Positions 3,253 to 18,627 of a stretch of DNA of 64,000 nucleotides are shown here, one piece after another; within the stretch, counting starts at the first letter, position 1, and each line of letters opens with the position of its first letter. Under the pieces are notes generated by a model that was not told the DNA's origin, did not search any database, and saw nothing but the letters and a program-made list of their open reading frames with translations. Both the position numbers and the translations under genes were made by a program. Origin of the DNA: an uncultured cyanobacterium (GTDB taxonomy: Bacteria > Cyanobacteriota > Cyanobacteriia > Cyanobacteriales > Nostocaceae); assembly GCA_903848645.1 (NCBI GenBank), contig CAINGU010000029.1, forward strand, positions 1-64,000. Direction: 5' to 3'.

Positions 3253-5109
3253 ATGAGCCAAAGTCGGACTACAGTAAACTTCGTCACTTCCGAGACAGTT
3301 TCTCAAACCTTCTATGATGTAGTCATAGTCGGAGCGGGAGTAGCTGGAGCCATTGTTGCCAAACAACTCAGTGAACAGGGCAAGCGAGTTTTAATCCTGG
3401 AAGCGGGAACTGGTTATGGTTTAACCCTTGAGGGCTTTCAAAGTCACGTTGATACCTTTTATGGTGCAGTAGACAAAAACGCCAACTCCCCTTATCCCGT
3501 AAACCGTAATGCCCTTAGCCCCACTGATGGCGCTAATCATTATTTTGAAGAAAAAGGACCATTACCTCTTAGCGGTTCTTATACAAGAGTGTTAGGTGGA
3601 ACTACCATGCACTGGGAAGGGAAAACCATCCGAATGTTACCCGAAGATTTTGAGTTACAAACTAAGTATGGAAAAGGTCTTGACTGGCCGATTAAGTATG
3701 AAGAAATCATGCCCTACTACCGCCAAGCGGAGTATGAAATGGGGGTTTCTGGGGACGTAGAAGGACAAAAAGGTCTAGGTGTCCCCTTTAAAGATGGCTA
3801 TGTCTTCCCTATGCTTGAGCTTCCTCCTTCTTACTTAGATAAGAAAGTTACGGAAGGACTGAATGGAGCTACTGTAGAACTTGAAGGCGAGACTATTAAA
3901 TTAGAACTCAGTACATTTCCCCAGGGTCGCAATAGTATCCCTAATCCCAAGTACAACGAGTACGGACATAAAGCTGATATTCGCTTCGTTCCTGATGGAA
4001 TTGCTAGTGTTAAGCCTCTAGAGTATGGGGAACGCTGCCAAGGTAACGCTAACTGTGTCCCTATCTGTCCAGTGCAAGCGAAGTATGATGCTCGCAAAAC
4101 CTTAAATACCATAGCTTTTCCTGATCGAGTACATTTACTTGCCCAGGCTGTAGCCTATAAGGTGGAAGTTGATCCCGCCAACGGTCGTGTTACCGCTATC
4201 CACTACAAGCACTATCAAGATAAGAACTCTCCTACCCATACTGTCGGTATTGCCAAAGGTACTTTATTTGTCCTAGCTGCCCATGCAGTCGAAAATGCCA
4301 AACTGATGCTTGCTTCCGATTTGAAGAGTAGCAATGATTTGATGGGACGCAACCTCATGGATCATCCTTTCCTCTTAGCTTGGGCTTTGATGCCGGAAGT
4401 AACTGGGACAATGCGAGGACCCTTAGTGACATCAGGAATCGGGACTTTCCGTAAAGGTAAGTTTCGTCACAACCAATGCACATTTGCCATGGATATCCAC
4501 AATGATGGTTGGGGATGGTCAGGAACAGGTGCTACTGACGTGGTAAGAGATGCTGTAGAAAAGGGTAATCTGTATGGTTCTGAACTACGTCAAGAACTAA
4601 TTAGCAAGATATCACGGCAGTTACTATTAGCCTTCATGTGCGAATTACCCGCCGATTCCAACAACCGAGTCACCATTGATCCTCGATATACAGATCAATT
4701 GGGTAATTATCGTCCCGTCATTCATTTTGACCTACCCGATTATTGCAAAAAAACCTTTGCTTACGCCCGAAATCTCTCCAAAACCATTTTCAATCATGTA
4801 GGTGCGGAAGATCATACCCATTACGATAATACAGACCCTGCCTATTTTGAGTATGAGGGTGAAGGCTACTGGTTCCGAGGAGGAAATCACTTTTCAGGAA
4901 CTCACGTCATGGGAACGACTAAATCCAACTCAGTTGTGGATAAATATATGCGTTCTTGGGATCATCAGAATCTTTACATGGTTGGTGCAGGAAGTATGCC
5001 CTCCATTGGTAGTTCCAATACTACCTTGAGTATCGCCGCTCTAACTTTCATGGCTACTGAAGAGATGCTTAGGGACTTAGATATTGCGTCTAAGCCTGTA
5101 AATCTCTAG
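3253..5109 (+). CDS. GMC-family FAD-dependent sugar/alcohol oxidoreductase
   Basis: This is a flavoprotein oxidising an alcohol or sugar hydroxyl. The 618 residues hold the FAD dinucleotide motif GAGVAG at 27-32, an E in the following LILEAG, the GMC signature around GSYTRVLGGTTMHW, and a C-terminal active-site region with His546 and His551 (HFSGTHVMGT) and Asn in GSSNTTLS. The Cys-rich stretch near residues 260-280 (CVPICPVQAKYD) resembles the large subunits of membrane-bound gluconate, sorbitol and fructose dehydrogenases. No signal peptide is visible. A gene resembling the small subunit of those enzymes lies two genes downstream, which supports a polyol/sugar dehydrogenase role over choline or cholesterol oxidation. 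Substrate unknown. First gene of the cluster. Confidence 0.85.
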   Translation: MSQSRTTVNFVTSETVSQTFYDVVIVGAGVAGAIVAKQLSEQGKRVLILEAGTGYGLTLEGFQSHVDTFYGAVDKNANSPYPVNRNALSPTDGANHYFEEKGPLPLSGSYTRVLGGTTMHWEGKTIRMLPEDFELQTKYGKGLDWPIKYEEIMPYYRQAEYEMGVSGDVEGQKGLGVPFKDGYVFPMLELPPSYLDKKVTEGLNGATVELEGETIKLELSTFPQGRNSIPNPKYNEYGHKADIRFVPDGIASVKPLEYGERCQGNANCVPICPVQAKYDARKTLNTIAFPDRVHLLAQAVAYKVEVDPANGRVTAIHYKHYQDKNSPTHTVGIAKGTLFVLAAHAVENAKLMLASDLKSSNDLMGRNLMDHPFLLAWALMPEVTGTMRGPLVTSGIGTFRKGKFRHNQCTFAMDIHNDGWGWSGTGATDVVRDAVEKGNLYGSELRQELISKISRQLLLAFMCELPADSNNRVTIDPRYTDQLGNYRPVIHFDLPDYCKKTFAYARNLSKTIFNHVGAEDHTHYDNTDPAYFEYEGEGYWFRGGNHFSGTHVMGTTKSNSVVDKYMRSWDHQNLYMVGAGSMPSIGSSNTTLSIAALTFMATEEMLRDLDIASKPVNL

Positions 5110-5173
5110 GATTGAAAACGACAAAGCGCACTGATTATACAACTTTTGAAAATATTATCAGCAGAGGTATTTG

Positions 5174-6286
5174 ATGATTGATAGTTTAGAGTTGATTACA
5201 ACGGTTGAAGACCTGCATTACTATCTCATCCAGGGCTTGATGATAGAACACGCGACTCTTCCCCCTTATCTGACTGCTCTTTATTCCCTGAAGCCAGGCT
5301 CAAATCTGGAGGCTTTTCACTTTATTCGCACCGTCGCTGTAGAGGAAATGCTCCATCTGACTCTAGTAGCCAATGTGTTTAATGCAGTGGGAGGAAATAT
5401 TCAAGGAGTTTTGACCAATCCTGACTTTGTTCCCACATATCCTACTCATTTACCCACAGGAGCAGAAGACTTTGAAGTTAATGTCGGCAAGTTTTCCGAA
5501 GAAACAGTAAAGACATTTCTCAAGATTGAACGTTCTCATCATGTAGATGACAATGCACCATTAGTGGAGTCTCGAACCAAACAAACAAGGAGACACAATT
5601 TTTTAAAACTTGCTGGTAAAAATGACAACCTAAGCTACCACACCATTGGATTATTCTATACAGAAGTGATTCGGGGCTTAAAGGCACTGGATAAGAAGTA
5701 TAAGAATGAAGGTAAGAATCTCTTCATTGGTGATCCCAAAAAGCAAATTACCCCTGAATATTACTATGATGGTGCGGGAGATATCGTCAAGGTGACGGAT
5801 CTTGACTCTGCTATCAAGGCATTGTATATCATTCAAACCCAAGGTGAAGGATCTGGAACTACAACGATCTATGATTCTGAAAAAGAACTTTCTCATTACT
5901 ATCGTTTCCAACAACTCCTGAAGGGTCGCTACTATAAGATAGACAAGGAAGATCCCACAAACTCAGATAAGCCTGATCATCCTACAGGTGAAGAGTTTGC
6001 TGTAGATTGGAACGCTGTTTATCCCGTGATGGAGAATCTGACGCTGAGTAAACTCAGAAGTTATGCTGACCCAGATTCAGAATTATATGCTCACGCACTG
6101 GAGTTCCAGCAAGCTTACAGCAGATTCCTTGCAGATATTGAACATTCCTTTAATGGTCATCCTGAGTATTTGCTTCCTGCGGTGGGAAGTATGTTCCGAC
6201 TCAAGGAATTGGCTACGAGTCTGATTCGTAACCCCATTCCTGGACTGAGGGGCGTTAATGCAGGTCCGATTTATAAGTTTGAGTAA
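5174..6286 (+). CDS. Ferritin-like protein of the VioB/iminophenyl-pyruvate dimer synthase type
   Basis: The N-terminal domain (residues 10-150) is the ferritin-like fold found in VioB and RebD-associated proteins. It has a Glu-His pair at 25-26 (LMIEHATLPPYL) and an EExxH motif at 57-61 (VAVEEMLHL), which look like metal ligands. The remaining 200 residues are helical and unassigned. Family members sit in indolocarbazole/violacein clusters, but most bacterial homologues are uncharacterised. There are no tryptophan-dimer genes nearby, so violacein-like chemistry is not supported. A TTG one codon earlier is possible; the ATG at 5174 has AGAGG upstream. It lies 64 bp after the flavoenzyme, so is probably in the same operon. 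Confidence 0.75.
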   Translation: MIDSLELITTVEDLHYYLIQGLMIEHATLPPYLTALYSLKPGSNLEAFHFIRTVAVEEMLHLTLVANVFNAVGGNIQGVLTNPDFVPTYPTHLPTGAEDFEVNVGKFSEETVKTFLKIERSHHVDDNAPLVESRTKQTRRHNFLKLAGKNDNLSYHTIGLFYTEVIRGLKALDKKYKNEGKNLFIGDPKKQITPEYYYDGAGDIVKVTDLDSAIKALYIIQTQGEGSGTTTIYDSEKELSHYYRFQQLLKGRYYKIDKEDPTNSDKPDHPTGEEFAVDWNAVYPVMENLTLSKLRSYADPDSELYAHALEFQQAYSRFLADIEHSFNGHPEYLLPAVGSMFRLKELATSLIRNPIPGLRGVNAGPIYKFE

Positions 6287-6353
6287 AAAGCAAAAGTTGG
6301 GACTCAAAAACCTAGAAATAAAAACCTAGAAATTTTGTGGAGGTAAATAACGA

Positions 6354-6842
6354 GTGAGTATTAAGACACCTGAATTCATGGGGTATTTCCTGGATTTCTC
6401 AGCAGAGGTAACAGGATTTTCTCGGTTTGATCTGGAAGGAACTGGACAAGCTGACCTTTACTTTGACACCGTTCTGAACATGATTGGTGAGAAAATATTG
6501 ACAGAATTGCTAGAAACCTTTCAGAAGTTTGATAAGAGTGCAAAAAAGAAACATAATCCTACAATTTTGACTGAGGGATTACGTTCGGAAATTCTCACTT
6601 CTGCCACACTCGGACCTGTTGCTCGCAACATCATCAAGCTGTGGTATACAGCTACCTGGGAGAAACTCCCCAAGTCTTTGGAGTCCTGGTATGGGATTGA
6701 CCAAACAAATAGCCCTTTTATTCCCAGTCCTCAATCCTATCCAGAAGGACTTGTGTGGAAGGCTATTGGGGTTAACCCTCCCGGCGCGAAAGCACCTGGT
6801 TATGGGACTTGGAGTGAGCCTCCTTCAGTTAGTTTGAGTTAA
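6354..6842 (+). CDS. Small subunit-like protein of FAD-dependent sorbitol/fructose dehydrogenases
   Basis: The 162-residue product has the layout of the FAD-SLDH small-subunit family. Near the N-terminus is a VTGFSRFDL block, and at the C-terminus are ARNIIKLWYTATW, then a Tyr-x-x-Gly-Leu-x-Trp motif, and a final GYGTWSEPP. In known enzymes this subunit stabilises and helps mature the GMC-type catalytic subunit, which here is encoded two genes upstream. Unlike characterised small subunits it lacks a Tat signal. The GTG start has GGAGG 9 bp upstream. No cytochrome c subunit gene is present in the cluster. I am fairly sure of the family and unsure of the electron acceptor. Confidence 0.7.
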   Translation: MSIKTPEFMGYFLDFSAEVTGFSRFDLEGTGQADLYFDTVLNMIGEKILTELLETFQKFDKSAKKKHNPTILTEGLRSEILTSATLGPVARNIIKLWYTATWEKLPKSLESWYGIDQTNSPFIPSPQSYPEGLVWKAIGVNPPGAKAPGYGTWSEPPSVSLS

Positions 6843-6886
6843 TTACAACTTGATTATCTGGCAAACAATTTTAATGGAGATACACC

Positions 6887-7567
6887 ATGAATATTAAACT
6901 TTGGTTTCGGGGAATTTCTGCTTTTGTCCTGACAATTGTTCTGAGTGTAACGCTGTTTAGTTTACCTGCTAATGCCTTCGTTGCTACTAATAGCCGTCTT
7001 GCTCTTGTTCATTTACTGGAGACAAACGAGTGTAATAGCTGTGATCTGTCGGGAGTGGATTTATCCAATAAAGATTTGTATGGTAGCGCACTCATTGGAG
7101 CAAATCTCACAGGGGCTAATTTGTCGAACAGCTTGCTGAATGAAGCCAAGCTAGATAAAGCAAATCTGACAGGAGCGAATCTATCGGCAGCCAGCCTTTT
7201 AGGAATCAGGTTAAACAACGCCATTTTAACTAACGCCAATCTCACAAATTCCCAATTGGCTAATGCAGAGATGGCAGGGGTAAACTTGTCGGGGGCTAAT
7301 CTCACAGAGGCTAATCTAGAATATGCGATCGCCTCTGGTGCAAATTTGTCTAATGCGATCGCCAAAGAAGCAAATTTCACCAACGCATTTTTATCTACCT
7401 CTAAGTTAGATGGTGCAGATTTTTCTGATGCTGTCCTGAGAAATGTCAGATTATCAGGAGCTACTCTGACGAAGACTAACTTCATTGATGCCGATTTGTT
7501 TCGTGCCAGGATGCCTAATGACACCATATATAACGGTAAGGTGGATCAGTTTGGGGCTATTCAATAG
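6887..7567 (+). CDS. Exported pentapeptide-repeat protein
   Basis: The product has a clear signal peptide (hydrophobic residues 10-27, likely cleavage after ANA near residue 30). It is followed by about 30 consecutive A(N/D)LXX pentapeptides from residue 50 to near the C-terminus, predicting a right-handed quadrilateral beta-helix. Two Cys (residues about 49-52, CNSC) precede the repeats. Cyanobacteria carry many such proteins in the periplasm or thylakoid lumen, mostly of unknown role. It lies 44 bp after the dehydrogenase small subunit with a GGAGA ribosome site, consistent with the same transcript. The function in this cluster is unknown; a scaffold role is only a guess. Confidence 0.88.
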   Translation: MNIKLWFRGISAFVLTIVLSVTLFSLPANAFVATNSRLALVHLLETNECNSCDLSGVDLSNKDLYGSALIGANLTGANLSNSLLNEAKLDKANLTGANLSAASLLGIRLNNAILTNANLTNSQLANAEMAGVNLSGANLTEANLEYAIASGANLSNAIAKEANFTNAFLSTSKLDGADFSDAVLRNVRLSGATLTKTNFIDADLFRARMPNDTIYNGKVDQFGAIQ

Positions 7568-7619
7568 GCTGATAGTTAACATATCACCATAAACGGGATA
7601 GTCAGGAAACCCTCTCTGG

Positions 7620-7662
7620 TATAGCAATCCTATTTGTTCACAACTCAAATAGGATTGCTATA
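7620..7662. repeat. Perfect 17-bp inverted repeat
   Basis: The arms TATAGCAATCCTATTTG (7620-7636) and its exact complement (7646-7662) flank a 9-bp loop. It lies between the pentapeptide and the next enzyme gene. Stem strength suggests a dispersed palindromic repeat or RNA hairpin that could attenuate or stabilise the transcript. There is no T-run, so it is not a classic terminator. Confidence 0.8.
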
Positions 7663-7744
7663 TACCCCTAAAACATCCCGCAAAAATGGTGAACGGCTAA
7701 GTAAATAATCAACTTGTTCAAAATAAAAAAACAGAGGAATTCTC

Positions 7745-8863
7745 GTGACACAAATCACCGAAAATACTACTTTTCTCCATGGGCTAAAATCCCTTTCTAA
7801 ACAAATCAGTCGGTTATTAATTTCCCTATTCATAGTGATTTTTATAGGAATCACTACCATACTTCCTGCCAATGCTGAGGTAAGAACTAGCTATTCTGAT
7901 AGTTTAACTTCTCTAGTTCCTAAAACCCCCATTTTCGACCCTCAAAAAGTCCGTTTAGGTATTACCCCTACAGGTTGGAGTAACAGTGATGATCTCACTA
8001 TGGATCTTAATCCTGCCATTTCCTACAAACAGATTATCAGTGAGATTGCCCTATCAGGGTTTAAAGGTCTTCAAGGCGCTCCTAAATTTCCCAAAGACAT
8101 CGCTACATTAAAAAAAGACCTAGAGGTTCGGGGTTTAACAATTTCTGAACCCTGGGTTGGGACTTTCTTCACTATCGGAGCGAAAGAAGATAGCCAAAAA
8201 ATCTTCAAGGATCAGATGGCATTCATGAAGAATTTTGATAGTAAAGTGATTGTCGTTGCCGAACTCGGAGGGGCTGTCCATCAACAACCCATTGAACCTT
8301 TAAATAATCGTCCCCAGTTCACTGATGAACAATGGCAACTCTTGATTGATGGCTTAAATTCTCTGGGAGATCAAGCCTTTGCCAATGGCATGATCTTGTG
8401 TTACCATCCCCACGTCGGCACTGGAGTAGAAATCCGCGCAGATATTGATCGTCTCATGGCAGGAACAAAGGATCATCATCTGAACCTACTACTTGATACT
8501 GGCCATCTTTACTATTCAGGTGTTAGCCAAAGTGAAATTTTGGATCTGATCAATACCTATGGTAATCGGATTAAGCACGTTCACCTCAAAAATATTCGTC
8601 AAAATATCTTGGACGAAGCAAAACAAAAGCAACTCAGCTTTTTAAGTGCAATTCGCTCTGGAGTTTTTACAGTTCCTGGGGATGAAAATGGAATCATTAA
8701 CTTTGATACCATTTTAAATAAACTAGCTGCTGTTAACTATCAAGGATGGTTAATGGTGGAAGCAGAACAAGATCCTAGCAATACCACAATTAAGCCTTTA
8801 CGTGAGCCTTTAGAATATGCGCTCATGGCCCGACGTTATCTCCGTGGAGTGACTGGTTTATAA
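7745..8863 (+). CDS. Exported IolE-like sugar isomerase/dehydratase (TIM barrel)
   Basis: The xylose-isomerase-like TIM barrel (AP_endonuc_2 fold) spans residues about 70-365. The barrel opens with GITPTGWSN, and metal ligands are likely in VVVAELGG, CYHPHVGT, LLLDTGHLY, KHVHLKN and the C-terminal LMVEAEQDP. This pattern resembles IolE, 2-keto-myo-inositol dehydratase. The unusual part is the N-terminus: a hydrophobic stretch at residues 28-43 ending in PANA indicates a signal peptide, whereas IolE is cytoplasmic. The GTG start has AGAGGA just upstream. A strong terminator follows the gene. The substrate is not determinable; another keto-inositol or keto-sugar is plausible. Confidence 0.78.
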   Translation: MTQITENTTFLHGLKSLSKQISRLLISLFIVIFIGITTILPANAEVRTSYSDSLTSLVPKTPIFDPQKVRLGITPTGWSNSDDLTMDLNPAISYKQIISEIALSGFKGLQGAPKFPKDIATLKKDLEVRGLTISEPWVGTFFTIGAKEDSQKIFKDQMAFMKNFDSKVIVVAELGGAVHQQPIEPLNNRPQFTDEQWQLLIDGLNSLGDQAFANGMILCYHPHVGTGVEIRADIDRLMAGTKDHHLNLLLDTGHLYYSGVSQSEILDLINTYGNRIKHVHLKNIRQNILDEAKQKQLSFLSAIRSGVFTVPGDENGIINFDTILNKLAAVNYQGWLMVEAEQDPSNTTIKPLREPLEYALMARRYLRGVTGL

Positions 8864-8877
8864 TTTTTTATTTACTA

Positions 8878-8908
8878 AAAGTCGGAGATTTTATCTACCG
8901 ACTTTTTT
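8878..8908 (+). terminator. Rho-independent terminator
   Basis: An AAAGTCGG stem pairs with CCGACTTT around a 12-bp loop and runs into a T-tract. It follows the IolE-like gene by 14 bp, so the first five cluster genes may form one transcription unit and the genes after it another. Confidence 0.85.
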
Positions 8909-8992
8909 AAAAATTAAATATTAAATAGTCAGGTTTTATAACCACTAAAACCATTTTTGCACAACTCAACAACAATTCTTAGGAGTTTAGAT

Positions 8993-9385
8993 ATGAGCCT
9001 TCACGATAAAGAGGAAATCAGACAAGTATTTGAAGAAACCTATGCCGAGAATGTGAGAACTAGAAATCTTGATGGTTATGGTGATATGTATACAGAAGAT
9101 GCACTTTGGATGGCACCGGATGTAGATGATCGTTGTGGTAGGGCAGATATTATAGAAGGATTTGCTCAAAGCATTGCTACCCAAGACATTGATCCAATTT
9201 TTACAGCGGATGAAATTGAAGTAATGGATGATTTAGGTTATGTCATGGGTATCTCTGTGGCAACTATTTATCCTCATGATGGTAGTCCTGCAAAACAGGT
9301 GAAATTTCGGGCTTTATGGTTAATGAAAAAAGATGCAGGCATCTGGAAAATTGACCGTCAAATTTGGAACAAAAAACCCTTGTAA
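8993..9385 (+). CDS. SnoaL-like / DUF4440 (NTF2-fold) protein
   Basis: This is a 130-residue cone-shaped NTF2-fold protein. It starts with a helical DKEEIRQVFEETYAENV, followed by the typical YGDMYTEDALWMAPD and GRADIIEGFAQ segments and ends in IWKIDRQIWNKKPL. The family includes polyketide cyclases, ketosteroid-isomerase-like enzymes and small-ligand binders, so its presence here suggests isomerisation or binding of a cluster intermediate. The ATG at 8993 is chosen because AGGAG lies 8 bp upstream; a longer frame reaches back to 8957. Short single-domain form, no signal peptide. It follows a terminator and may begin a second transcription unit. Confidence 0.8.
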   Translation: MSLHDKEEIRQVFEETYAENVRTRNLDGYGDMYTEDALWMAPDVDDRCGRADIIEGFAQSIATQDIDPIFTADEIEVMDDLGYVMGISVATIYPHDGSPAKQVKFRALWLMKKDAGIWKIDRQIWNKKPL

Positions 9386-9458
9386 TTTTTGCAGAGATAT
9401 CAGGGAAAACATTGTACCGTAATTCAAATTTACTGGGAATTTTTTGGAACATAATAAA

Positions 9459-10466
9459 ATGAACAACTCATCATCTTTGCCTAATATTTACCTGAGCTTT
9501 TTCATGTTTACCACAGATTTAAAACCCGATAATTTAGAATATCGGAAAACTGTAGTAGCACACATAAAAGAACTGAAAAAATTTGGCTATACTGGGTTTG
9601 AATTTCCCATTGCTTTAACTAATCCTGCAAATTATGCTCAAGATTTAGAAAATTATCAAAATTTACGTCAGTATCTTGATGGCGAAGGTTTGGCAGATAT
9701 TAAAATATCCACCAATGTCGGAGCAACCAGAACTTTCGATCCTAGTTCTCCCTATCCCAAACAGAGACAAGAAGCCCTAGAATATCTGCAATCAAGAGTT
9801 GATATTACGGCTGCTTTAGGGGGTGAAATTATGATGGGGCCTATTGTCATACCCTATGGTGTTTTTCCAACCACAGACTTTAATGATCCTATTTGGAGCG
9901 ATCAACTACAGGATCATTTAGCGGTGCGTTATCAAAATGCTCAACCGATTCTCAATGAATTGGGTAAATATGCTCAAGGAAAAAATGTCAAATTAGCCAT
10001 TGAACCTATTACTCATTGGGAAACTCCTGGCCCAAATAAATTATCTCAATTAATTGACTTTCTCAAAGGTGTGGAAAGTAAACAAGTGGGGGTTGTAATT
10101 GATAGCGCCCATGAAATCTTAGATGGAGATGGCCCAGAAATATTCTCAGAACAAGTTGCCTATTTAGCCCAAGAAGAACGGCTACATTACATTCAAGTCT
10201 CACCTCCTGATCGTGGCGCACTTCATACCAGTTGGCTACCCTGGCAGTCCTTTCTCAAACCAGTTTTAGAAGTTTATACAGGCCCAATTGCTGTGGAAAT
10301 TTTCAATGCTATTCCTCCATTTATTAACTCTCTGCGTCTGTCTCGACGCAAGTTTTGGATACCAGGGGAAGATGAAGCTAATTGCTATCCTAGTGCCTAC
10401 GATATTGTGGATAAAGCTATCCAAGCAACCAAAAAGGAAATCGAAAAAGCTATTAAGCATTGCTAA
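9459..10466 (+). CDS. Sugar phosphate isomerase/epimerase-like TIM barrel (tagatose/psicose epimerase type)
   Basis: The 335-residue protein has the AP_endonuc_2 TIM-barrel fold. Likely metal ligands are the Glu in KLAIEPITHWE, the Asp/His in VVIDSAHEIL, the HYIQVSPPDRG strand and the final Glu in IAVEIFNA, a spacing typical of D-tagatose 3-epimerase relatives. No signal peptide is seen, so it is probably cytoplasmic, unlike the related exported barrel 600 bp upstream. I prefer the ATG at 9459 over a TTG five codons earlier; neither has a strong ribosome site. It is 73 bp after the SnoaL-like gene. Substrate unknown. Confidence 0.78.
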   Translation: MNNSSSLPNIYLSFFMFTTDLKPDNLEYRKTVVAHIKELKKFGYTGFEFPIALTNPANYAQDLENYQNLRQYLDGEGLADIKISTNVGATRTFDPSSPYPKQRQEALEYLQSRVDITAALGGEIMMGPIVIPYGVFPTTDFNDPIWSDQLQDHLAVRYQNAQPILNELGKYAQGKNVKLAIEPITHWETPGPNKLSQLIDFLKGVESKQVGVVIDSAHEILDGDGPEIFSEQVAYLAQEERLHYIQVSPPDRGALHTSWLPWQSFLKPVLEVYTGPIAVEIFNAIPPFINSLRLSRRKFWIPGEDEANCYPSAYDIVDKAIQATKKEIEKAIKHC

Positions 10467-10525
10467 ATTTTCTTAGAGAAATAACGATTTACCATGATCA
10501 TAAATTCTGACTTAGATACTTCATT

Positions 10526-12472
10526 ATGAAGATAGTTCAACCATTACCCAAAAGGATCAAGATTGTCTCAGTTTTTGTGGTGTTTTTCCTATCCTTATGC
10601 CTAACATTTTTAGGTTGGGATGTAGCAATCGCCGGACCCCACGAAACTATGGGAGCATGGACAACTATGCCCATGCCACCTATAGAAGATCGGATGCAGT
10701 CTGTCCATACCATTGTGCTACCGAATGGCAAAGTTTTAATGGTCAATGGTAGTAGTTTTCGTAGCACCCTGATTGAAGAAGATGGCAAATATAAGTTTAA
10801 AGAAGGTGTAGATCCAAAAAACTACAATGCCATCAATAATACAGGCTTACTAGACCCCGAAACGGGAAAATTTGAACGTATTCCCTCACCTCCAGCCTCA
10901 CAAAATGGGACAACAAACGATCTCTTTTGTCTGGGTCATGTGCAGTTAGCCGATGGTAATGTCCTATTCATCGGGGGAACAGGACGTTATTACCCAGGTG
11001 GAGCTTTTACCGGCAGCAAGCAGATTAACCTGTATAAATGGCAAACAGGAGAATGGAAAGCTATCGGGGAGACAAAAGATGGGCGTTGGTATCCGAGTTT
11101 AATTCCCCTGTCCAGTGGAAAAGTGGTCATTTTTTCCGGTTTAAAATGGGATAAACCCAATCAAATTAACCCCAGTATTGAAATTTACGATCCCAAAACA
11201 GAAAAACTCCAATACTTCGACCCCAGACTAATCGAAAATAGTCCCTTCAACACCAAAGTAGAAGGTGAGGACGTTTACGATAGCATTGACCTTTATCCCC
11301 GCGTTTTTCCTTTAAAAGATGGCAGATTGCTGATTACAGGAGATGAAGCCGGTATTGCCGGAGTTACAGTTCCCCATTTCAGTAAAAAAAGCTATTTAAT
11401 GAGCATTCAGGAAGCAGATAATGGCAAGCTCTCCATTAGTTTTGAAGTCGGTCCTGATCGCTTAGAAACCAACAAAGCCTACGGAACCGCCCTACAAGTC
11501 CCTAATTCGGAAGATGTCATTTTATTAGGTGGCATTATCGGTACTAATAATATTAGTTTTGGACGGGGTGGCAATACAGCAGGATTTCCCAAAGAGGTCA
11601 GGGTAGCCAGCAGTTTACAACATTGGATTGCACCTACTGAAAAAAGTGATAACAAGATTGGTAAATGGGAAATATTTGACCATTTCCTTGATAAACCAAG
11701 GGCTAACCTCCAAGCCGTCATTTTACCCACCAAGGAAATTTTAGTGGTTAATGGGGGGCGATATCCCGAATATCAGCCAGTTTACGAACCCTTGCTCATG
11801 ACCCCAGATGCAAAGGCAACCGCAGGTTATAGAACCAAGTCCTTAAACCCTGGTAAATTCCCCAGACTGTACCATAATGGGGCTGTTTTACTACCGGATG
11901 CCCGTGTATTAATTGTGGGTGGCAATGCCAACCGAGCCGCACTCAAAAAAGACGGCACAGTTCGTGTGGATGTTCTTGGTGATGCTCAAACATTTTTTAC
12001 CTTTGCCAAGTTGCACAATCAATCAGGTGAAGCTGAAGAATTTGATCTCGACACCTTTTACAAAGATCCCCAACATTATTACGCCCAAGGAGATTCTGAA
12101 CCCTTTGTGCCGGCGGAAATTTGGCAAGGAGAAATTTTCATTCCTCCCTATCTCTTTAAATCAGGTGAGCGTCCTCAAATCAATCAAGCTCCTGACACTC
12201 TTGAATATGGAAAAACAGGGACAATTAGGGTAGAAAATGGCACTAAAAACCCATCGCTGGTACTCGCCAAATTGGGGGCTGTTACCCATTCCTTTGATTA
12301 TGGACAACGGTTAGCAGAGTTGCCCACTAAGGTCTCGGATGATAGTTCATTGGTGGAATTTACAGCGCCTGACAACGCCAATCTCTATCCTCCTGGATAC
12401 TACATGATGTTTTATCTCAATGATGTAGGCAAACCTGCCAAAGCCAAAATTGTCAAACTTCAAGCTGGATAA
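10526..12472 (+). CDS. Secreted copper-radical oxidase (galactose/glyoxal oxidase family)
   Basis: The enzyme is predicted to oxidise a primary alcohol or aldehyde with O2, giving H2O2. A signal peptide covers residues 11-36 (cleavage after AIA). It is followed by a seven-bladed kelch-type propeller (about 45-530) and a C-terminal DUF1929 early-set domain (about 540-645). The full catalytic set can be placed: Cys135 in LFCLGH and Tyr189 in GRWYPS for the Cys-Tyr cofactor, axial Tyr449 and His450 in FPRLYHNGAVLL, and His588 in AVTHSFDYGQR. The RWYPS context is closer to glyoxal oxidase and Streptomyces GlxA than to fungal galactose oxidase. The DyP peroxidase gene begins 28 bp later. Substrate unknown. 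Confidence 0.87.
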   Translation: MKIVQPLPKRIKIVSVFVVFFLSLCLTFLGWDVAIAGPHETMGAWTTMPMPPIEDRMQSVHTIVLPNGKVLMVNGSSFRSTLIEEDGKYKFKEGVDPKNYNAINNTGLLDPETGKFERIPSPPASQNGTTNDLFCLGHVQLADGNVLFIGGTGRYYPGGAFTGSKQINLYKWQTGEWKAIGETKDGRWYPSLIPLSSGKVVIFSGLKWDKPNQINPSIEIYDPKTEKLQYFDPRLIENSPFNTKVEGEDVYDSIDLYPRVFPLKDGRLLITGDEAGIAGVTVPHFSKKSYLMSIQEADNGKLSISFEVGPDRLETNKAYGTALQVPNSEDVILLGGIIGTNNISFGRGGNTAGFPKEVRVASSLQHWIAPTEKSDNKIGKWEIFDHFLDKPRANLQAVILPTKEILVVNGGRYPEYQPVYEPLLMTPDAKATAGYRTKSLNPGKFPRLYHNGAVLLPDARVLIVGGNANRAALKKDGTVRVDVLGDAQTFFTFAKLHNQSGEAEEFDLDTFYKDPQHYYAQGDSEPFVPAEIWQGEIFIPPYLFKSGERPQINQAPDTLEYGKTGTIRVENGTKNPSLVLAKLGAVTHSFDYGQRLAELPTKVSDDSSLVEFTAPDNANLYPPGYYMMFYLNDVGKPAKAKIVKLQAG

Positions 12473-12500
12473 AAAACATTCATCAAAAAGGTGGAAATTT

Positions 12501-13937
12501 GTGGCACTAACAGAAGAAGATTTAAAAAATGTTCCCGAAAGCGGCATTGATCCAGAAGATACCGAAAGCAAGTATCAAGGACTCCTAGAAGACTTACAAG
12601 GAAACATTTTAAAAGGACATGGACGAGATTACAGCGTGCATCTCTTTTTAGAATGGAAATCGGAAAAAGTTGCTGAAGCTAAGAACTGGATACAGACCTT
12701 TGCAAAATCTTATGTAACATCAGCTAAACAGCAAGCAGATGAGGCTTTACGCTACCGACAAGAAGGTATTCCCGGCAAGGTTTTTGCTAACTTTTTACTA
12801 ACTCGTCGTGGTTATGAGGCTTTAGGATTTAAGCCTTTTCAAGTTCCGAAAGATCAGCCCTTTACGATGGGGATGAAAAACGAGCAAATCAGACAAGATT
12901 TTTTAAAAGATCCAGAGGTTAAAGACTGGGAAGCAGGATTTCAAAAAGATATCCATGCCTTACTATTGATTGCTGATGATAACTTGATTAATTTGTTGCA
13001 AACTGTCAATAAAATTTCTCAAAGTCTGCGTCAAGTTGCTGTGATTATTCACAGAGAAGATGGCTTTATTTTGAGAAATAAAGCCGGACAAATCATTGAA
13101 CATTTTGGGTTTGTGGATGGGGTCAGTCAGCCTTTATTTATCAAACGAGATATTATGAGAGCGCAAACCAATGATTGTAATTTCAGTCAATGGGACCCCA
13201 GAGCCTCTTTAGATATTATTCTCGTTAAAGATTATAATGGAAAAACCGAGGATAGTTACGGTAGCTATTTAGTTTACCGAAAACTCGAACAAAATGTTAA
13301 AGCATTTCATGAGGATCAACAGAAACTTGCTGAAACTTTAAACATCAAAAATGATTTAGCTGGGGCTTTAGTTATGGGTCGTTTTGCCGATGGAACTCCC
13401 GTAACTAAATCAGATATTCCCACCTATGCTGTCACCCCAACTAATAACTTTAATTTTGATGAGGATACAGCAGCCACAAAATGTCCATTTCATGCCCATA
13501 TTCGCAAAACAAACCCGCGTGGTGATACAGGACGGGTTGAATCTGCTCCTGAATTTGATGAAGCTTTACGCATAGAAAGAGATCATCGAATTGCTAGACG
13601 GGCAGTTAGTTATGGAGAACATGATCCTACTGCAAAACCGACAGAGGGTTCAGGATTATTGTTTCTTTGTTTCCAAGCAGATATTGAAAACCAATTCAAT
13701 TTTATGCAATCGAGATGGGCAAATCCTGATCGTTTTGTTGATGTTGGAGTAGGGATCGATCCTGTAATTGGTCAGCCAGGAAAACCAAAAGGTGATCCAT
13801 CCAATGTAATATCAAAATGGCCAACAAAATGGGGTGACAAGGAAACTAAGGAGTATCATTTTGAGCTATGGGTGAAAATGAAAGGTGGAGAATATTTCTT
13901 CGCTCCTAGTATTAGTTTTCTGACGAGTTTAGCTTAA
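12501..13937 (+). CDS. Dye-decolourising (DyP-type) heme peroxidase
   Basis: This haem peroxidase uses H2O2. The family motif GFVDGVSQP (GxxDG) lies at residues 203-211 of the 478-residue product, with the distal Asp. CPFHAHIRKTNPRG near residue 330 carries the proximal His, and the distal Arg is in HRIARRAVSYGE. The order and size fit the larger fungal/actinobacterial-like DyP classes. No Tat or Sec signal is visible. GTG at 12501 has GGTGG upstream; a TTG at 12450 would overlap the preceding gene by 23 bp. The close coupling to a copper-radical oxidase suggests it consumes or controls the H2O2, or helps maturation. Confidence 0.85.
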   Translation: MALTEEDLKNVPESGIDPEDTESKYQGLLEDLQGNILKGHGRDYSVHLFLEWKSEKVAEAKNWIQTFAKSYVTSAKQQADEALRYRQEGIPGKVFANFLLTRRGYEALGFKPFQVPKDQPFTMGMKNEQIRQDFLKDPEVKDWEAGFQKDIHALLLIADDNLINLLQTVNKISQSLRQVAVIIHREDGFILRNKAGQIIEHFGFVDGVSQPLFIKRDIMRAQTNDCNFSQWDPRASLDIILVKDYNGKTEDSYGSYLVYRKLEQNVKAFHEDQQKLAETLNIKNDLAGALVMGRFADGTPVTKSDIPTYAVTPTNNFNFDEDTAATKCPFHAHIRKTNPRGDTGRVESAPEFDEALRIERDHRIARRAVSYGEHDPTAKPTEGSGLLFLCFQADIENQFNFMQSRWANPDRFVDVGVGIDPVIGQPGKPKGDPSNVISKWPTKWGDKETKEYHFELWVKMKGGEYFFAPSISFLTSLA

Positions 13938-13940
13938 AGG

Positions 13941-14104
13941 GTGTTTGAAAAGCGATTAGAAATCGCGGCTACACGGGCAAAACCCACCTATTCCTTCGGA
14001 ACGCTCCGCGAACGTGGGTTAAAACCCTTAATTTTTCTTAGTCCACGACGGTGGACTTTGTTTATGTAGTAGCGACTTATAGTCGCCGAAAACTTTTCAA
14101 ACAA
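13941..14104. mobile_element. MITE-like repeat with terminal inverted repeats
   Basis: Ends GTGTTTGAAAAG and its near-complement CTTTTCAAACAA bound a 164-bp non-coding unit. Inside are three hairpins: GCGATT/AATCGC, GTCCAC/GTGGAC and GCGACT/AGTCGC. No coding potential. It sits between the peroxidase and the glycosidase genes and resembles small non-autonomous elements found in cyanobacterial genomes. Confidence 0.6.
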
Positions 14105-14154
14105 CCTCTAAGACTATTATTGCCAACAGTTCATTGATTAAATCGCAAAAAGCC

Positions 14155-16965
14155 ATGATGCAAATTAAAGACACAGCCGAAAGAAAAAGACTGGTTGAAG
14201 ATAGTAATCGGGAAAAGCACTGGAAACAATGGGGTCCGTATTTAAGCGATCGACAATGGGGAACAGTGCGCGAAGATTATAGTGCTGATGGTAACGCTTG
14301 GGACTATTTTTCCCATGATCAAGCTCGTTCCCGTACCTATCGCTGGGGTGAGGATGGGATTATGGGAATTTCTGATGATCACCAACGTCTTTGTTTTGCG
14401 ATCGCCCTCTGGAATGGGGAAGATGCTATCCTCAAAGAAAGGCTATTTGGGTTAACAAATAGTGAGGGAAATCACGGGGAAGATGTCAAAGAGTATTACT
14501 TTTATTTGGATAGTACCCCCACCCACTCTTACATGAAAGGGCTGTACAAATATCCCCATCAGGCTTTTCCCTATGAAGAGTTAGTGAAGGAAAATGGCCG
14601 CCGCAAAGCCCAAGATTCTCGCGCCTTTGAATTCGAGTTGATGGATACAGGGATATTTGACGATAACCGCTATTTTGATGTTTTCATCGAATATGCCAAA
14701 AATTCTCCCGAAGATATCTTGATTCAAATCACGGTTGTTAATCATGGGTCAGAAGCTAAAGAATTACATCTAGCACCAACTCTTTGGTTTCGTAACACTT
14801 GGTCTTGGGGCGCAACAGACGAAGCTAAACCCTCTCTGGAAGGTGTTAACTCTAGTGGAGATTTTAAGGTAGTTAAAGCTCAATTTACCGACCTCAAATC
14901 AGCGCAACCGGAGGTCAAGAAATGGCTTTATTGCGAAACCCCCGATGCCATGCTGTATACGGAAAACGAAACCAACAAAGAAAAGTTCGGATGGGGAAAG
15001 AATGATTCTTACGTCAAAGATGGCATTAACGATTATATTGTTAATGGTAAAACCAGTGCAGTAAATCCTCATCAACAAGGAACCAAAGTTTCACCCCATT
15101 ATCGTTTAAATCTTGCCCCTGGGGAAACCAAAATCGTGCGATTGCGCCTCAGTGATATTGACGATTTAGCAACACCCTTTGGTAGTGAATTTGGGTCAGT
15201 ATTTGCACAACGCAAAAGTGAAGCTGATCAATTTTATCAAGCAGTCACTCCCTGTGAAGAATTACCAGTGGAAATGCGTAACGTCCAACGACAAGCCTTT
15301 GCAGGGATGTTATGGAGTAAGCAATTTTTCCATTATGTCGTGCAAGATTGGATCAATGGAGACCCAGGCGCACCCCCACCAGAGCAACGCAAGAACTCTA
15401 GCAGAAACAGTGAGTGGACTCACCTGTTTAACGAAGATATCATCTCCATGCCTGACAAATGGGAATATCCTTGGTTTGCTGCTTGGGACTTGGCATTTCA
15501 CACCATCCCTCTAGCCTTAATTGACCCAGAATTTGCGAAAAAGCAATTATATCTCTTCACCAGAGAATGGTTTATGCACCCTAACGGTCAAATACCAGCC
15601 TATGAGTGGAACTTTAGCGACGTAAATCCCCCAGTTCATGCCTGGGCAGCTTGGCGGGTTTATAAAATAGAAGAGAAAATGTATGGCAATGCAGACGGAG
15701 GATTTCTCGAACAACTATTTCAGAAATTATCCCTCTACTTTACTTGGTGGATAAACCGCAAAGATGTAGATGGCAACAATCTGTTTGGAGGCGGTTTTCT
15801 GGGGCTAGATAATATTGGGGTTTTTGACCGCAGTAATTTGAAAATTGCCGGTGCTAGTATTGAGCAATCAGATGGTACTAGCTGGATGGGAATGTTTTGT
15901 CTTAACTTGTTGAAGATGGCAGCAGAATTAGCCAAAAGCCATACAAATTCAAAAGTTTATGACGATATGGCCTCCAAATACTTCCAGCACTTTTTGCTGA
16001 TTGCCGAAGCTATGAACAAACTGGGAGGAAATGAAGTTGATATTTGGGATGATAGTAAATATGAAGATGGCGGTGGCTTCTTCTATGACATTTTGAAACT
16101 TCCGGCTAATGCCATAGAGGGAGGAAATAACGCCTTTTCTTTCTCAATGAAAGTCCGTTCTATGGTAGGACTTATTCCTCTATTTGCAGTGGAAGCGATC
16201 GATCAGGAAACACTAGACAAATATTTGAACTCCGACTTCAAAAAAAGGGCTGATTGGTTTCTAAACCATCGTCAGGATTTGACAAAAAACGAGAACATTT
16301 ACTTTGATAAAACAGATAGTAATTTGATGGAAGGAGGGTTAGCTTTATCCCTAGTCAACCCGGAAAGACTCAGAAGAATTCTCAAAAGAATGCTCGATGA
16401 ATCTGAATTTTTAGGACAATATGGCGTTCGAGCTTTATCTAAATCCCACGAGCCACCCCATCCTTATGAGTTGCCCTTTGCAATCAGAATGGAAGATGGT
16501 AGTTACCAGAAACCTTTGGTAGAATACGAACCAGGAGAATCGAGATTTGGTCTATTTGGTGGCAATTCCAATTGGCGTGGTCCGGTTTGGATGCCTGTGA
16601 ATTTCTTGATTATTGAATCACTCCAAAAATTCCATCGTTATTTAGGAGATGATTTCAAAGTAGAATATCCTACTGGTTCAGGAAAGATGATGAATCTCTG
16701 GGAAGTATCTACAGAAATTTCTCAAAGATTGATTAATATTTTCTTGCCCAAAACAGAAGGTCAAAGTGAGCGACCTGTTTATGGAAGCACTAAAAAGTTT
16801 CAAGATGACCCCAACTGGAATCAATACATTCTCTTCTATGAATATTTTCATGGAGATAACGGTGCGGGCATTGGGGCTAGTCATCAAACAGGTTGGACAG
16901 GAGTAGTCGCAAAACTAATCCAACAACATGGAGCTTATACTGCCCAAGGAAAAAGCCCTGAATAG
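14155..16965 (+). CDS. GH63-like (MGH1-type) glucosidase
   Basis: The large (936-residue) cytoplasmic-looking glycoside hydrolase has an (alpha/alpha)6 barrel. An N-terminal beta-rich region (about 1-370) contains YGRWGED-like [14 protein letters not shown]. The barrel shows [57 protein letters not shown] and [16 protein letters not shown], which are typical of bacterial GH63-type glucosidases; the DVNPPVHAW segment and the later acidic residues are the expected active-site walls. Homologues are often annotated as glucosidases with unproven substrates, possibly small glucosides such as glucosylglycerate. Several ATGs lie near the start, and a TTG at 14134 is also open. It is separated from the peroxidase by a MITE-like repeat and ends the cluster. 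Confidence 0.82.
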
Positions 16966-17700: not shown

Positions 17701-18627
17701 ATGTTTACCAAAAAATTGATTTTTCTATCGTTGTTAACGATAACTACAACTTTAATATCTGGTTCTCAAGATGTGATAGCTAATTCAGTAGCAAAACAGT
17801 CTGCTAATTGTCCTGGTAAAAATCCTAAATTTAGTATTGAGTTTTTGCAAACTAATAATCATGGTGAAAGATATAGCAAAGGAATTAATCATGTAATTAT
17901 TTTTAATCCTCAATCTCCACAATTAGATTTTAAAGTAAATGTGGGTTTAGCTCATCGGATTTATGCTAAAGATGCTAGGGGAAGATTTCGTAGAGAATAT
18001 GTACCCAAACAGTTTGGAGAAATTATTACAGATGCTAATTCTCAATTAAATGGTAAATCACCAATTGCGGCTATTAATGCTGATTATATAGATCCTAAAA
18101 ATCAACCCCAAGGTTTAAATATTTCTCGCGGTGTTGAGTATTCAGGAGCATTTAAAAATAGACGTTCTTCCTTTGGAATATCAGGAGGAAATCCTCAACA
18201 ACGAAAAGCAACTATGGGAACTGGAAGCAGAGGAGCAAATATTCTGAATTACAATATGGTGGGAGGTAATGGTAGATTTTATAATCAAGGACGATTTAAG
18301 GATATTTGCAAAGCGTTAGGAGAATTTGCTTGTAAAGGTGCTACTAATCGTTCTTTGGTTGCGATTACTAGTAAGGGTTATGTAATTTTTTTGGTAAATG
18401 ATGTAAAAGCTAATTCTAATATTCAAGTTTCTGCTAATAATAAAGAATTACTACCCAATCAATTTGATGATGTGTTAACAGGAATTGCTAAAAATAACTG
18501 TTTAGGGACAATTAAAGAAGGGATGTTATTTGATGGAGGAATGTCTCCAGGATTGTTTTATAATAATAAAGTCTATGTGGAGAATTTAGGACCCATTGGT
18601 TCGGTATTTTTAATTTATCAAAAGTAA
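17701..18627 (+). CDS. Exported phosphodiester glycosidase-like (NAGPA domain) protein
   Basis: The product has a signal peptide (residues about 5-28). The remainder matches the NAGPA/DUF2233 fold of phosphodiester alpha-N-acetylglucosaminidase: a conserved AAINADYIDPKNQPQG region near the middle and the C-terminal LFDGGMSPGLFYNN motif that replaces the usual NLDGGGSS. Proteins of this fold in bacteria act on cell-wall or exopolysaccharide phosphodiesters, but most are uncharacterised. It has four Cys outside the signal, possibly disulfide-bonded in the periplasm. The start ATG lies in an AT-rich leader. moeA follows after 22 bp, suggesting co-transcription but no obvious shared function. Confidence 0.75.
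   Translation: MFTKKLIFLSLLTITTTLISGSQDVIANSVAKQSANCPGKNPKFSIEFLQTNNHGERYSKGINHVIIFNPQSPQLDFKVNVGLAHRIYAKDARGRFRREYVPKQFGEIITDANSQLNGKSPIAAINADYIDPKNQPQGLNISRGVEYSGAFKNRRSSFGISGGNPQQRKATMGTGSRGANILNYNMVGGNGRFYNQGRFKDICKALGEFACKGATNRSLVAITSKGYVIFLVNDVKANSNIQVSANNKELLPNQFDDVLTGIAKNNCLGTIKEGMLFDGGMSPGLFYNNKVYVENLGPIGSVFLIYQK

Follow-up and report, generated by a model that had tools for sequence, protein, structure and literature searches.

A modular cyanobacterial operon with a five-gene core shared with proteobacteria: a candidate route for oxidation and dehydration of glucose

The window analysed here is a stretch of 64,000 nucleotides (contig CAINGU010000029.1, positions 1 to 64,000) from an uncultured cyanobacterium of the family Nostocaceae. 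Positions 3253-16965 are filled by ten open reading frames (ORFs), + strand throughout (Table 1), which the original prediction, made from the letters of the window, had described as a ten-gene redox and sugar cluster. The ten ORFs and their common strand are confirmed, and the set is real: it is a jointly inherited, modular and patchily distributed operon, the evidence for which lies in conservation, linkage and cofactor residues, all directly observed. However, the conserved unit is five genes, not ten, namely those for a flavin adenine dinucleotide (FAD) dehydrogenase (gene 1), a ferritin-like protein (gene 2), a small protein (gene 3), an IolE-like protein (gene 5) and a TIM-barrel epimerase (gene 7), often with an alpha-glucosidase. 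This core is common to cyanobacteria, alphaproteobacteria and a gammaproteobacterium. The function that we favour, with about an even chance of being right, is an oxidise-then-dehydrate metabolism of glucose released from alpha-glucan.

The census used an evenly spread sample of 252 genomes from the order, with gene 7 followed in 217 genomes of the family, and 16 genomes of the genus (below, G-numbers are genomes and L-numbers fetched loci or regions). All or part of the set occurs in 28 cyanobacterial loci, which come from 21 genomes of the first neighbourhood sets, six later ones and Gloeothece PCC 7822. A gene 2 homologue at E<=1e-20 is found in 24 of the 252 genomes, and 21 of these copies are close (at least 59% identity). 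The inner genes are linked, the flavoenzyme having a homologue in the fetched neighbourhood of 20 of the 21 close copies; the exception, in G395, is an orphan copy. The remaining three carriers (G303, G313, G444) are distant. Gene 8 is present in 25 of the 252 genomes, its 14 closest copies all inside the cluster, and gene 9 in 40. Gene 7 is present in 11 of the 217 family genomes and adjoins other cluster genes in all 11; within the genus it is found in 3 of 16 (G000, G013, G014). A search of the phylum with the GMC gene, in another sample and with at most five candidates scored per genome, gave at least 6 of 244 genomes, and the search of the order with the ferritin-like gene is the better census.

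The arrangement of the genes varies. Genes 1-4 diverge from genes 5-9 in G183, genes 8-9 lie between genes 1 and 2 in G339 and G376, and in Gloeothece genes 5-9 come ahead of genes 1-4. Of the 28 loci, 26 show gene 5, whole or in part, and 23 show gene 7. Some loci are partial: G421 and G059 show genes 1-4 only, G285 and G435 genes 1-5, G013 begins within gene 5 at a contig end, and G451 and G522 are broken. The ten genes were rejected as a conserved unit, GH63 and the oxidase-DyP pair having distributions of their own. Scattering of single genes, in which the original prediction saw the mark of chance adjacency, is found for these outer genes only; the inner genes stay together. Decay of the cluster is also seen. 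In G077 and G451 the flavoenzyme is cut beside a gene that by eye is transposase-like (L068 15301-18308, L161 2615-3766), in G522 several genes are broken (L194), and in S. medicae the flavoenzyme is split (L211 8060-9888).

Beyond cyanobacteria, a tblastn search of 72,556 plasmid records returned 170 records for gene 2 (E<=1e-3) and 111 for gene 3 (E<=1), mostly from Rhizobium and Sinorhizobium. Twelve plasmid regions were viewed and eight contain the five-gene core (L208-L214 and L219). Seven of these are proteobacterial, L208 being the Gloeothece locus already counted among the 28; L214 was judged by annotation only, and L211 is the region with the split flavoenzyme. A GH15-type gene is near the core in all eight, by annotation, with a Pfam check in L209. 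Two other regions, L215 and L218, do not show the core and carry, by annotation, flavoenzyme fragments and a ferritin-like gene; in the unannotated L216 tblastn found only the ferritin-like gene, and the core is not shown. Proteins of the six proteobacterial loci compared are 37-52% identical to those of the window. The loci of R. etli, R. sullae, S. medicae and Pseudoalteromonas add a metallo-beta-lactamase-fold protein and a thiamine-diphosphate enzyme. The recurrence of the core across phyla, with an alpha-glucosidase nearby in the proteobacterial regions viewed, argues for one shared chemistry, which we found unnamed in the literature searched.

Family labels come from Pfam and NCBIfam scans and PDB sequence searches, which uphold those of the original prediction apart from the 'dehydrogenase small subunit' of gene 3, for which the evidence is remote. 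The best PDB matches of gene 1 are the FAD-glucose dehydrogenase of Burkholderia cepacia (BcGDH, 6a2u) and the large subunit of fructose dehydrogenase (FDH). In BcGDH the 3Fe-4S cluster is held by Cys212, Cys218 and Cys222, and His476 and Asn519 are the catalytic pair (PMC6719666, in excerpt). C262, C268 and C272 of gene 1 align to the three cysteines and H546 and N589 to the catalytic pair, and all five are kept in 30 of 30 aligned homologues. BcGDH is bonded to its exported gamma subunit through a disulfide at Cys213, a position taken by Gln in all 30 homologues. A twin-arginine (Tat) pattern, sought in one simple form, is present in none of 32 gene 3 proteins, that of the window beginning MSIKTPEF. 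The Gln at the Cys213 position together with the lack of a Tat pattern fits a cytosolic dehydrogenase complex. Family scans show no multiheme cytochrome c subunit among the ten window genes, the only locus searched for one. A pyranose oxidase is known from cyanobacteria (PMC11650716, in excerpt), and gene 1 is only distantly related to it (9fl2, E 1.2e-9).

Gene 2 adjoins gene 1 in most loci. Its residues E58, E59, H62, E120 and H242 are kept in 32 of 32 homologues and E26 in 31, a set that might, at a guess, suffice for a diiron site. The gene 2 structure model (mean predicted local distance difference test, pLDDT, 44.2) was too poor and was left unused. Gene 3 has no family match at E<=0.01. 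The FAD-SLDH family PF12318 does not match the window protein and is met in 2 of 20 homologues, at best with E 0.026. Agrobacterium and Pararhizobium have a second flavoenzyme with a small protein at its side, and these small proteins match the family at E 2.1e-4 (22.0 bits against a cut-off of 24.2) and 0.006, neither reaching the cut-off. A PF12318 scan of the window genome found nothing, a weak test in which none of 14 control genomes came over the cut-off. The predicted structure of gene 3 is helical (pLDDT 71), with no PDB fold match at E<=0.001 and no convincing PDB sequence match. The likeliest reading of the three genes would be a gamma-alpha dehydrogenase with a ferritin-like protein in place of the cytochrome. 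A distant trio in G303 (L199 6031-9605) has the order small protein, flavoenzyme, ferritin-like protein; genes 4-10 have no homologue within the 16 kb searched.

The original prediction had two isomerase-type barrels. Gene 7 is indeed a TIM barrel, but gene 5 scores 307.5 bits against a cut-off of 290 for TIGR04379, the IolE equivalog family, and is thus a barrel of dehydratase, not isomerase, type. This cut-off is also passed by the gene 5 forms of Pararhizobium and Gloeothece. In the PDB, gene 5 matches IolE (9zmu, E 1.7e-57) and, weakly, a 2-hydroxy-3-keto-glucal hydratase (8ro4, E 6.3e-7). All 24 cyanobacterial rows of gene 5 (from 23 genes, G183 appearing twice) have a signal-like N-terminus and none of the six proteobacterial rows has one; in cyanobacteria, it would seem, some of the pathway has therefore left the cytosol. 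The signal-peptide test is crude, flagging 29 of 30 flavoenzymes (on their FAD-binding fold), 9 of 20 gene 6 proteins and 7 of 32 gene 2 proteins, so its use is restricted to negatives, to genes 4 and 8 and to the difference between the two groups in gene 5. Gene 7 matches 2qw5, which we take to be a protein of Anabaena variabilis ATCC 29413, and ketose 3-epimerases from about E 2e-7. Its residues E187, D220 and E285 are kept in 28 of 28 homologues, position 251 being Q in 23 and H in five. Where the two were compared by eye, along part of the alignment, the 2qw5 chain and the gene 7 protein of G614 have the same sequence.

Both IolE and aldos-2-ulose dehydratase abstract the proton alpha to a ketone and eliminate the hydroxyl that follows, and by this common chemistry the two would be equivalents. 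In two loci, G285 and G435, an aldos-2-ulose dehydratase homologue, with PF22301 in both, stands directly after iolE; that of G285 matches the fungal enzyme 4a7k at E 8.4e-56 over about 440 residues. PF22301 is found in 7 of the 252 genomes, and the window genome has no match to aldos-2-ulose dehydratase. DJ-1/HchA-like genes, below the NCBIfam cut-offs, lie next to the cluster in G183 and inside that of Gloeothece, which would agree with a dicarbonyl intermediate. In four other regions (L232, L233, L235 and L236, of G055, G329, G355 and G298) an aldos-2-ulose dehydratase homologue forms a trio with a protein of 237-280 residues and one of 1029-1121 residues. The long protein is GH31 in the three regions scanned (L236 was unscanned), and the one shorter protein scanned has no Pfam match. 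This cyanobacterial trio looks like a putative bacterial anhydrofructose-type pathway.

Alpha-glucan enzymes recur beside the cluster, which points to glucose from starch or glycogen as the substrate. GH63 is found in 9 of the 28 cyanobacterial loci (G000, G013, where it is broken, G014, G077, G436, G427, a piece at a contig end, G335, G349 and G356). GH15 is found in four (G123, G183, G399, by likeness only, and Gloeothece, by annotation), and that of G183 is over the cut-off for glucan 1,4-alpha-glucosidase. The G436 locus also has a glycogen debranching enzyme, and that of G296 a carbohydrate phosphorylase on the opposite strand. In gene 10 itself, D452 and E903 are kept in all eight cluster-linked copies aligned. 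GH63 is present in 30 of 60 genomes searched, also without the cluster, and so looks like a loose member that was recruited repeatedly.

For substrate, oxidised position, electron route, step order and product we infer the following scheme. An alpha-glucosidase (GH63 here, GH15 elsewhere) would release glucose, and the cytosolic 3Fe-4S flavoprotein dehydrogenase of gene 1 would turn a ring hydroxyl into a ketone, most likely at C2 (giving an aldos-2-ulose, glucosone) or at C3. Gene 3, as a gamma-like small subunit, would probably hold the gene 1 enzyme, and electrons would pass from the Fe-S cluster to the ferritin-like gene 2 protein, standing in for the cytochrome c subunit that known complexes have. 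The IolE-like gene 5 enzyme would take out water next to the ketone, and the gene 7 TIM barrel would epimerise or tautomerise. In most cyanobacterial loci the exported gene 8 oxidase would then oxidise a primary alcohol, its DyP partner (gene 9) dealing with hydrogen peroxide (H2O2) or copper loading, and the product would perhaps be a pyranone- or diketo-sugar-like metabolite. Of the pathway drawn in the original prediction, sugar release, oxidation and barrel enzymes thus stay as the best reading, and ordinary inositol catabolism becomes unlikely.

Several points weigh against this scheme. C1 is the position that BcGDH itself oxidises, and oxidation there would yield a lactone. The pathway would be divided between two compartments, since genes 4, 5 and 8 look exported and genes 3, 7, 9 and 10 do not. 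Enzyme activities are, for the whole set, putative assignments from likeness, and the structure model of gene 3 has no convincing PDB counterpart. GH63 is mostly unlinked, 2 of 40 GH63 regions fetched holding genes 1-9 (beyond weak likenesses), and 15 of the 28 loci have neither GH63 nor GH15 in the fetched stretch. In five of the seven PF22301 genomes the dehydratase is not beside the cluster: the four viewed have no cluster genes within 20 kb, G329 having a DyP of 47% identity about 20 kb away, and the fifth, G283, was not fetched and is without a close gene 2. The two loci that do have it beside the cluster, G285 and G435, show no homologue of genes 6-10 nearby. Gene 5 is not seen in G421 and G059, nor gene 7 in G421, G059, G285, G451 and G435, some of these being cut by contig ends. 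Finally, the correlation of inter-gene distance matrices (r 0.51-0.99), which in itself speaks for the scheme, is uncorrected for species phylogeny.

The main alternative is oxidation at C3, as in the glycoside route of Agrobacterium. There a flavoenzyme oxidises C3 and a TIM-barrel eliminase follows (A. tumefaciens; PMC10628242, in excerpt). By analogy, gene 1 would oxidise C3 of intact glucosides and the IolE and TIM proteins would eliminate or hydrate, the operon degrading glycosides such as plant glucosides in rhizobia. This is possible, if less than likely. It has the described precedent and the weak match of gene 5 to the keto-glucal hydratase in its favour, but gene 5 is far closer to IolE, the extra dehydratase beside iolE is of the aldos-2-ulose type, and hydrolases, which would make elimination unnecessary, are near the core in all eight core-bearing plasmid regions.

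Our preferred scheme of oxidation and dehydration of alpha-glucan glucose can also be drawn further, to a new class of pathway from glycogen-type glucose through glucosone and a diketo-deoxy sugar to a secreted pyranone-like signal or antibiotic. Its entry would be a new kind of sugar dehydrogenase, in which the flavin/3Fe-4S subunit passes electrons to an O2-reacting diiron ferritin-like protein, and it would be common to cyanobacteria and nodule bacteria, standing beside an acyl-homoserine-lactone synthase in R. etli. In this full form the proposal is doubtful. In R. etli p42f (L213 4222-5747), LuxR and acyl-homoserine-lactone synthase genes are just upstream of the core operon.

Genes 8 and 9 are each present in 22 of the 28 cyanobacterial loci. 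Gene 8 matches 4unm, which we take to be GlxA, and keeps C135, W188, Y189, Y449, H450 and H588 in 20 of 20 homologues; these are presumably, in part by our assumption of their roles, the Cys-Tyr cofactor, the stacking Trp and the copper Tyr/His/His. All 20 have a signal-like N-terminus, and from its family the enzyme is predicted to oxidise an alcohol with release of H2O2. Gene 9 keeps D223, H379 and R383 in 21 of 21 and matches Alr1585 (5c2i), presumably the DyP of Nostoc PCC 7120. Neither gene has a homologue in the six proteobacterial core regions searched. H2O2 handling, part of the original prediction, is thus a cyanobacterial add-on and not of the core. Oxidase-DyP pairs without the core are seen in G009, G301, G400, G421, G448 and G085 (4-20 kb seen; 4-7 kb for G301 and G448). 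In Streptomyces, maturation of GlxA requires DtpA (PMC4736821, in excerpt). A second alternative would put the exported oxidase and DyP at the centre, modifying a surface glycan as do GlxA and DtpA, with the other genes supplying or recycling sugars and H2O2. The six conserved copper-radical residues, the pairs without the core and the dependence of GlxA on DtpA are on its side. It is improbable all the same: the proteobacterial core regions searched have neither gene, the DyP here is without a signal peptide, DtpA being Tat-exported, and no glycan synthase was noticed in the loci, though none was searched for. Multicopper oxidases are found between genes 5 and 6 in G614 and G436 (in the latter by sequence likeness only), and a second, more distant DyP-like gene is in or next to the cluster in G427, G335, G296 and G356 (L166, L168, L171, L172).

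Inositol metabolism, in which the flavoenzyme would make inosose and IolE dehydrate it as in myo-inositol catabolism, is very improbable. The TIGR04379 scores of gene 5 and of its Pararhizobium and Gloeothece forms are what it would expect. Against it, IolD reaches at best 210.1 bits in the window genome (cut-off 715, passed by 3 of 14 control genomes), no other iol family is over its cut-off among the ten genes, and alpha-glucosidases are linked instead. Ordinary inositol catabolism was set aside on the missing IolD, and an IolE-family gene 5 without an IolD over the cut-off makes a different ketone likely. Chance adjacency of unrelated sugar and redox genes, with which the absence of gene 7 from 13 of the 16 genus genomes, the mostly unlinked GH63 and the solitary oxidase-DyP pairs would agree, is hardly credible and, for the core, is refuted by synteny, that is, by linkage at 20 of 21 close gene 2 copies, at the 14 closest oxidase genes and at 11 of 11 gene 7 matches, and across phyla.

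Five known systems resemble parts of the set. The FAD-dependent glucose and fructose dehydrogenases (BcGDH and FDH, of gamma-alpha-beta composition) have a homologous catalytic subunit, the 3Fe-4S and His/Asn residues and a small gene close by. Unlike them, the proteins here have no Tat pattern and no inter-subunit cysteine, a ferritin-like gene adjoins the catalytic gene, no cytochrome is among the ten, and the small protein is below family cut-offs. In the fungal glucosone route, pyranose 2-oxidase and aldos-2-ulose dehydratase lead to cortalcerone. The likeness consists of a flavoenzyme of the same superfamily and, in the two loci, the aldos-2-ulose dehydratase homologue beside iolE, whereas here the flavoenzyme is of dehydrogenase and not oxidase type, IolE-like and epimerase genes are present, and the window genome has no match to aldos-2-ulose dehydratase. 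Myo-inositol catabolism shares the IolE-family dehydratase with conserved His/Asp/Glu, but here no IolD is over the cut-off in the genome, alpha-glucosidases are linked, and the IolE of cyanobacteria is exported. With Streptomyces GlxA/DtpA the set shares the linked oxidase and DyP and the copper-radical residues; here, however, the pair is within a sugar operon, the DyP has no export signal and no cellulose-synthase-like gene is among the ten. Agrobacterium 3-keto-glycoside elimination likewise has flavoenzyme oxidation followed by TIM-barrel chemistry, but the barrels here are closest to IolE and ketose epimerases, and hydrolases are linked to the operon.

No description of the gene set was recognised in the open-access papers searched, most subscription journals being outside that search, and within this scope the claim that no such system is described stands. 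The pathway looks undescribed and built from known kinds of enzyme. The cluster gives a context to the solved structures 2qw5 and 5c2i, which are close relatives of two of its members. If it is real, the coupling of a 3Fe-4S flavoprotein sugar dehydrogenase to a ferritin-like partner, where known complexes have a cytochrome, would be an electron route of a new kind, relevant to glucose sensors and to ferritin-like enzyme chemistry. Laboratory strains carry the genes: R. etli CFN 42 and, it would seem, A. variabilis.

Table 1. Features of the ten-gene set, in window positions
Feature	Position	Strand	Basis
Gene 1, FAD- and 3Fe-4S-type GMC sugar dehydrogenase, catalytic (alpha) subunit	3253..5109	+	PF05199/PF00732; BcGDH alpha 6a2u E 7.6e-69
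Gene 2, ferritin-like (VioB-type) protein, candidate diiron partner of gene 1	5171..6286	+	PF12902 E 7.7e-68
Gene 3, small helical protein, probable gamma-like small subunit without Tat signal	6354..6842	+	remote evidence
Gene 4, exported pentapeptide-repeat protein, seen in cyanobacterial loci	6887..7567	+	PF00805; signal-like N-terminus (crude test)
Gene 5, IolE-like keto-sugar dehydratase, exported form in cyanobacteria	7745..8863	+	TIGR04379
Gene 6, SnoaL/DUF4440 protein	8957..9385	+	PF14534 E 5.3e-16
Gene 7, TIM-barrel sugar epimerase/isomerase-like protein	9444..10466	+	PF01261; 2qw5 E 2.4e-180
Gene 8, exported GlxA/galactose-oxidase-family copper-radical oxidase	10526..12472	+	PF09118; 4unm E 2.8e-29
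Gene 9, DyP-type peroxidase without signal peptide	12501..13937	+	Alr1585 5c2i E 3.4e-227
Terminator-like hairpin between genes 9 and 10	14040..14057	+	first listed site of terminator scan
Gene 10, GH63/MGH1-like alpha-glucosidase, loosely attached	14134..16965	+	PF22422, PF03200

The genes are closely spaced, with gaps of 28-177 bp among genes 1-9 and of 196 bp between genes 9 and 10. The likely start of gene 2 is ATG 5174. The gene 9 ORF opens at TTG 12450, and GTG 12501, on which the gaps are reckoned and which the G077 relative uses, is the likelier start. Terminators, said earlier to flank the set, were rejected as its boundaries: 12 terminator-like sites in the region compare with 15.0 +/- 4.0 in shuffles, not above chance, and the first listed site is internal, before gene 10. 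No insertion site could be read from the flanks, since the flanking genes at 2190-2831 (presumably nth-like; in 16 of 16 genus genomes) and 17701-18627 (in 11 of 16) share a contig within 20 kb only in the window genome. Gene 4 keeps C49 and C52 in 27 of 27 proteins, 25 of which have a signal-like N-terminus. On an Aureibacter plasmid (L217 7086-16643), where the core is not shown, a relative of gene 2 is directly before an ebo operon, and upstream lies a 587-residue protein without a Pfam match (E<=0.01).

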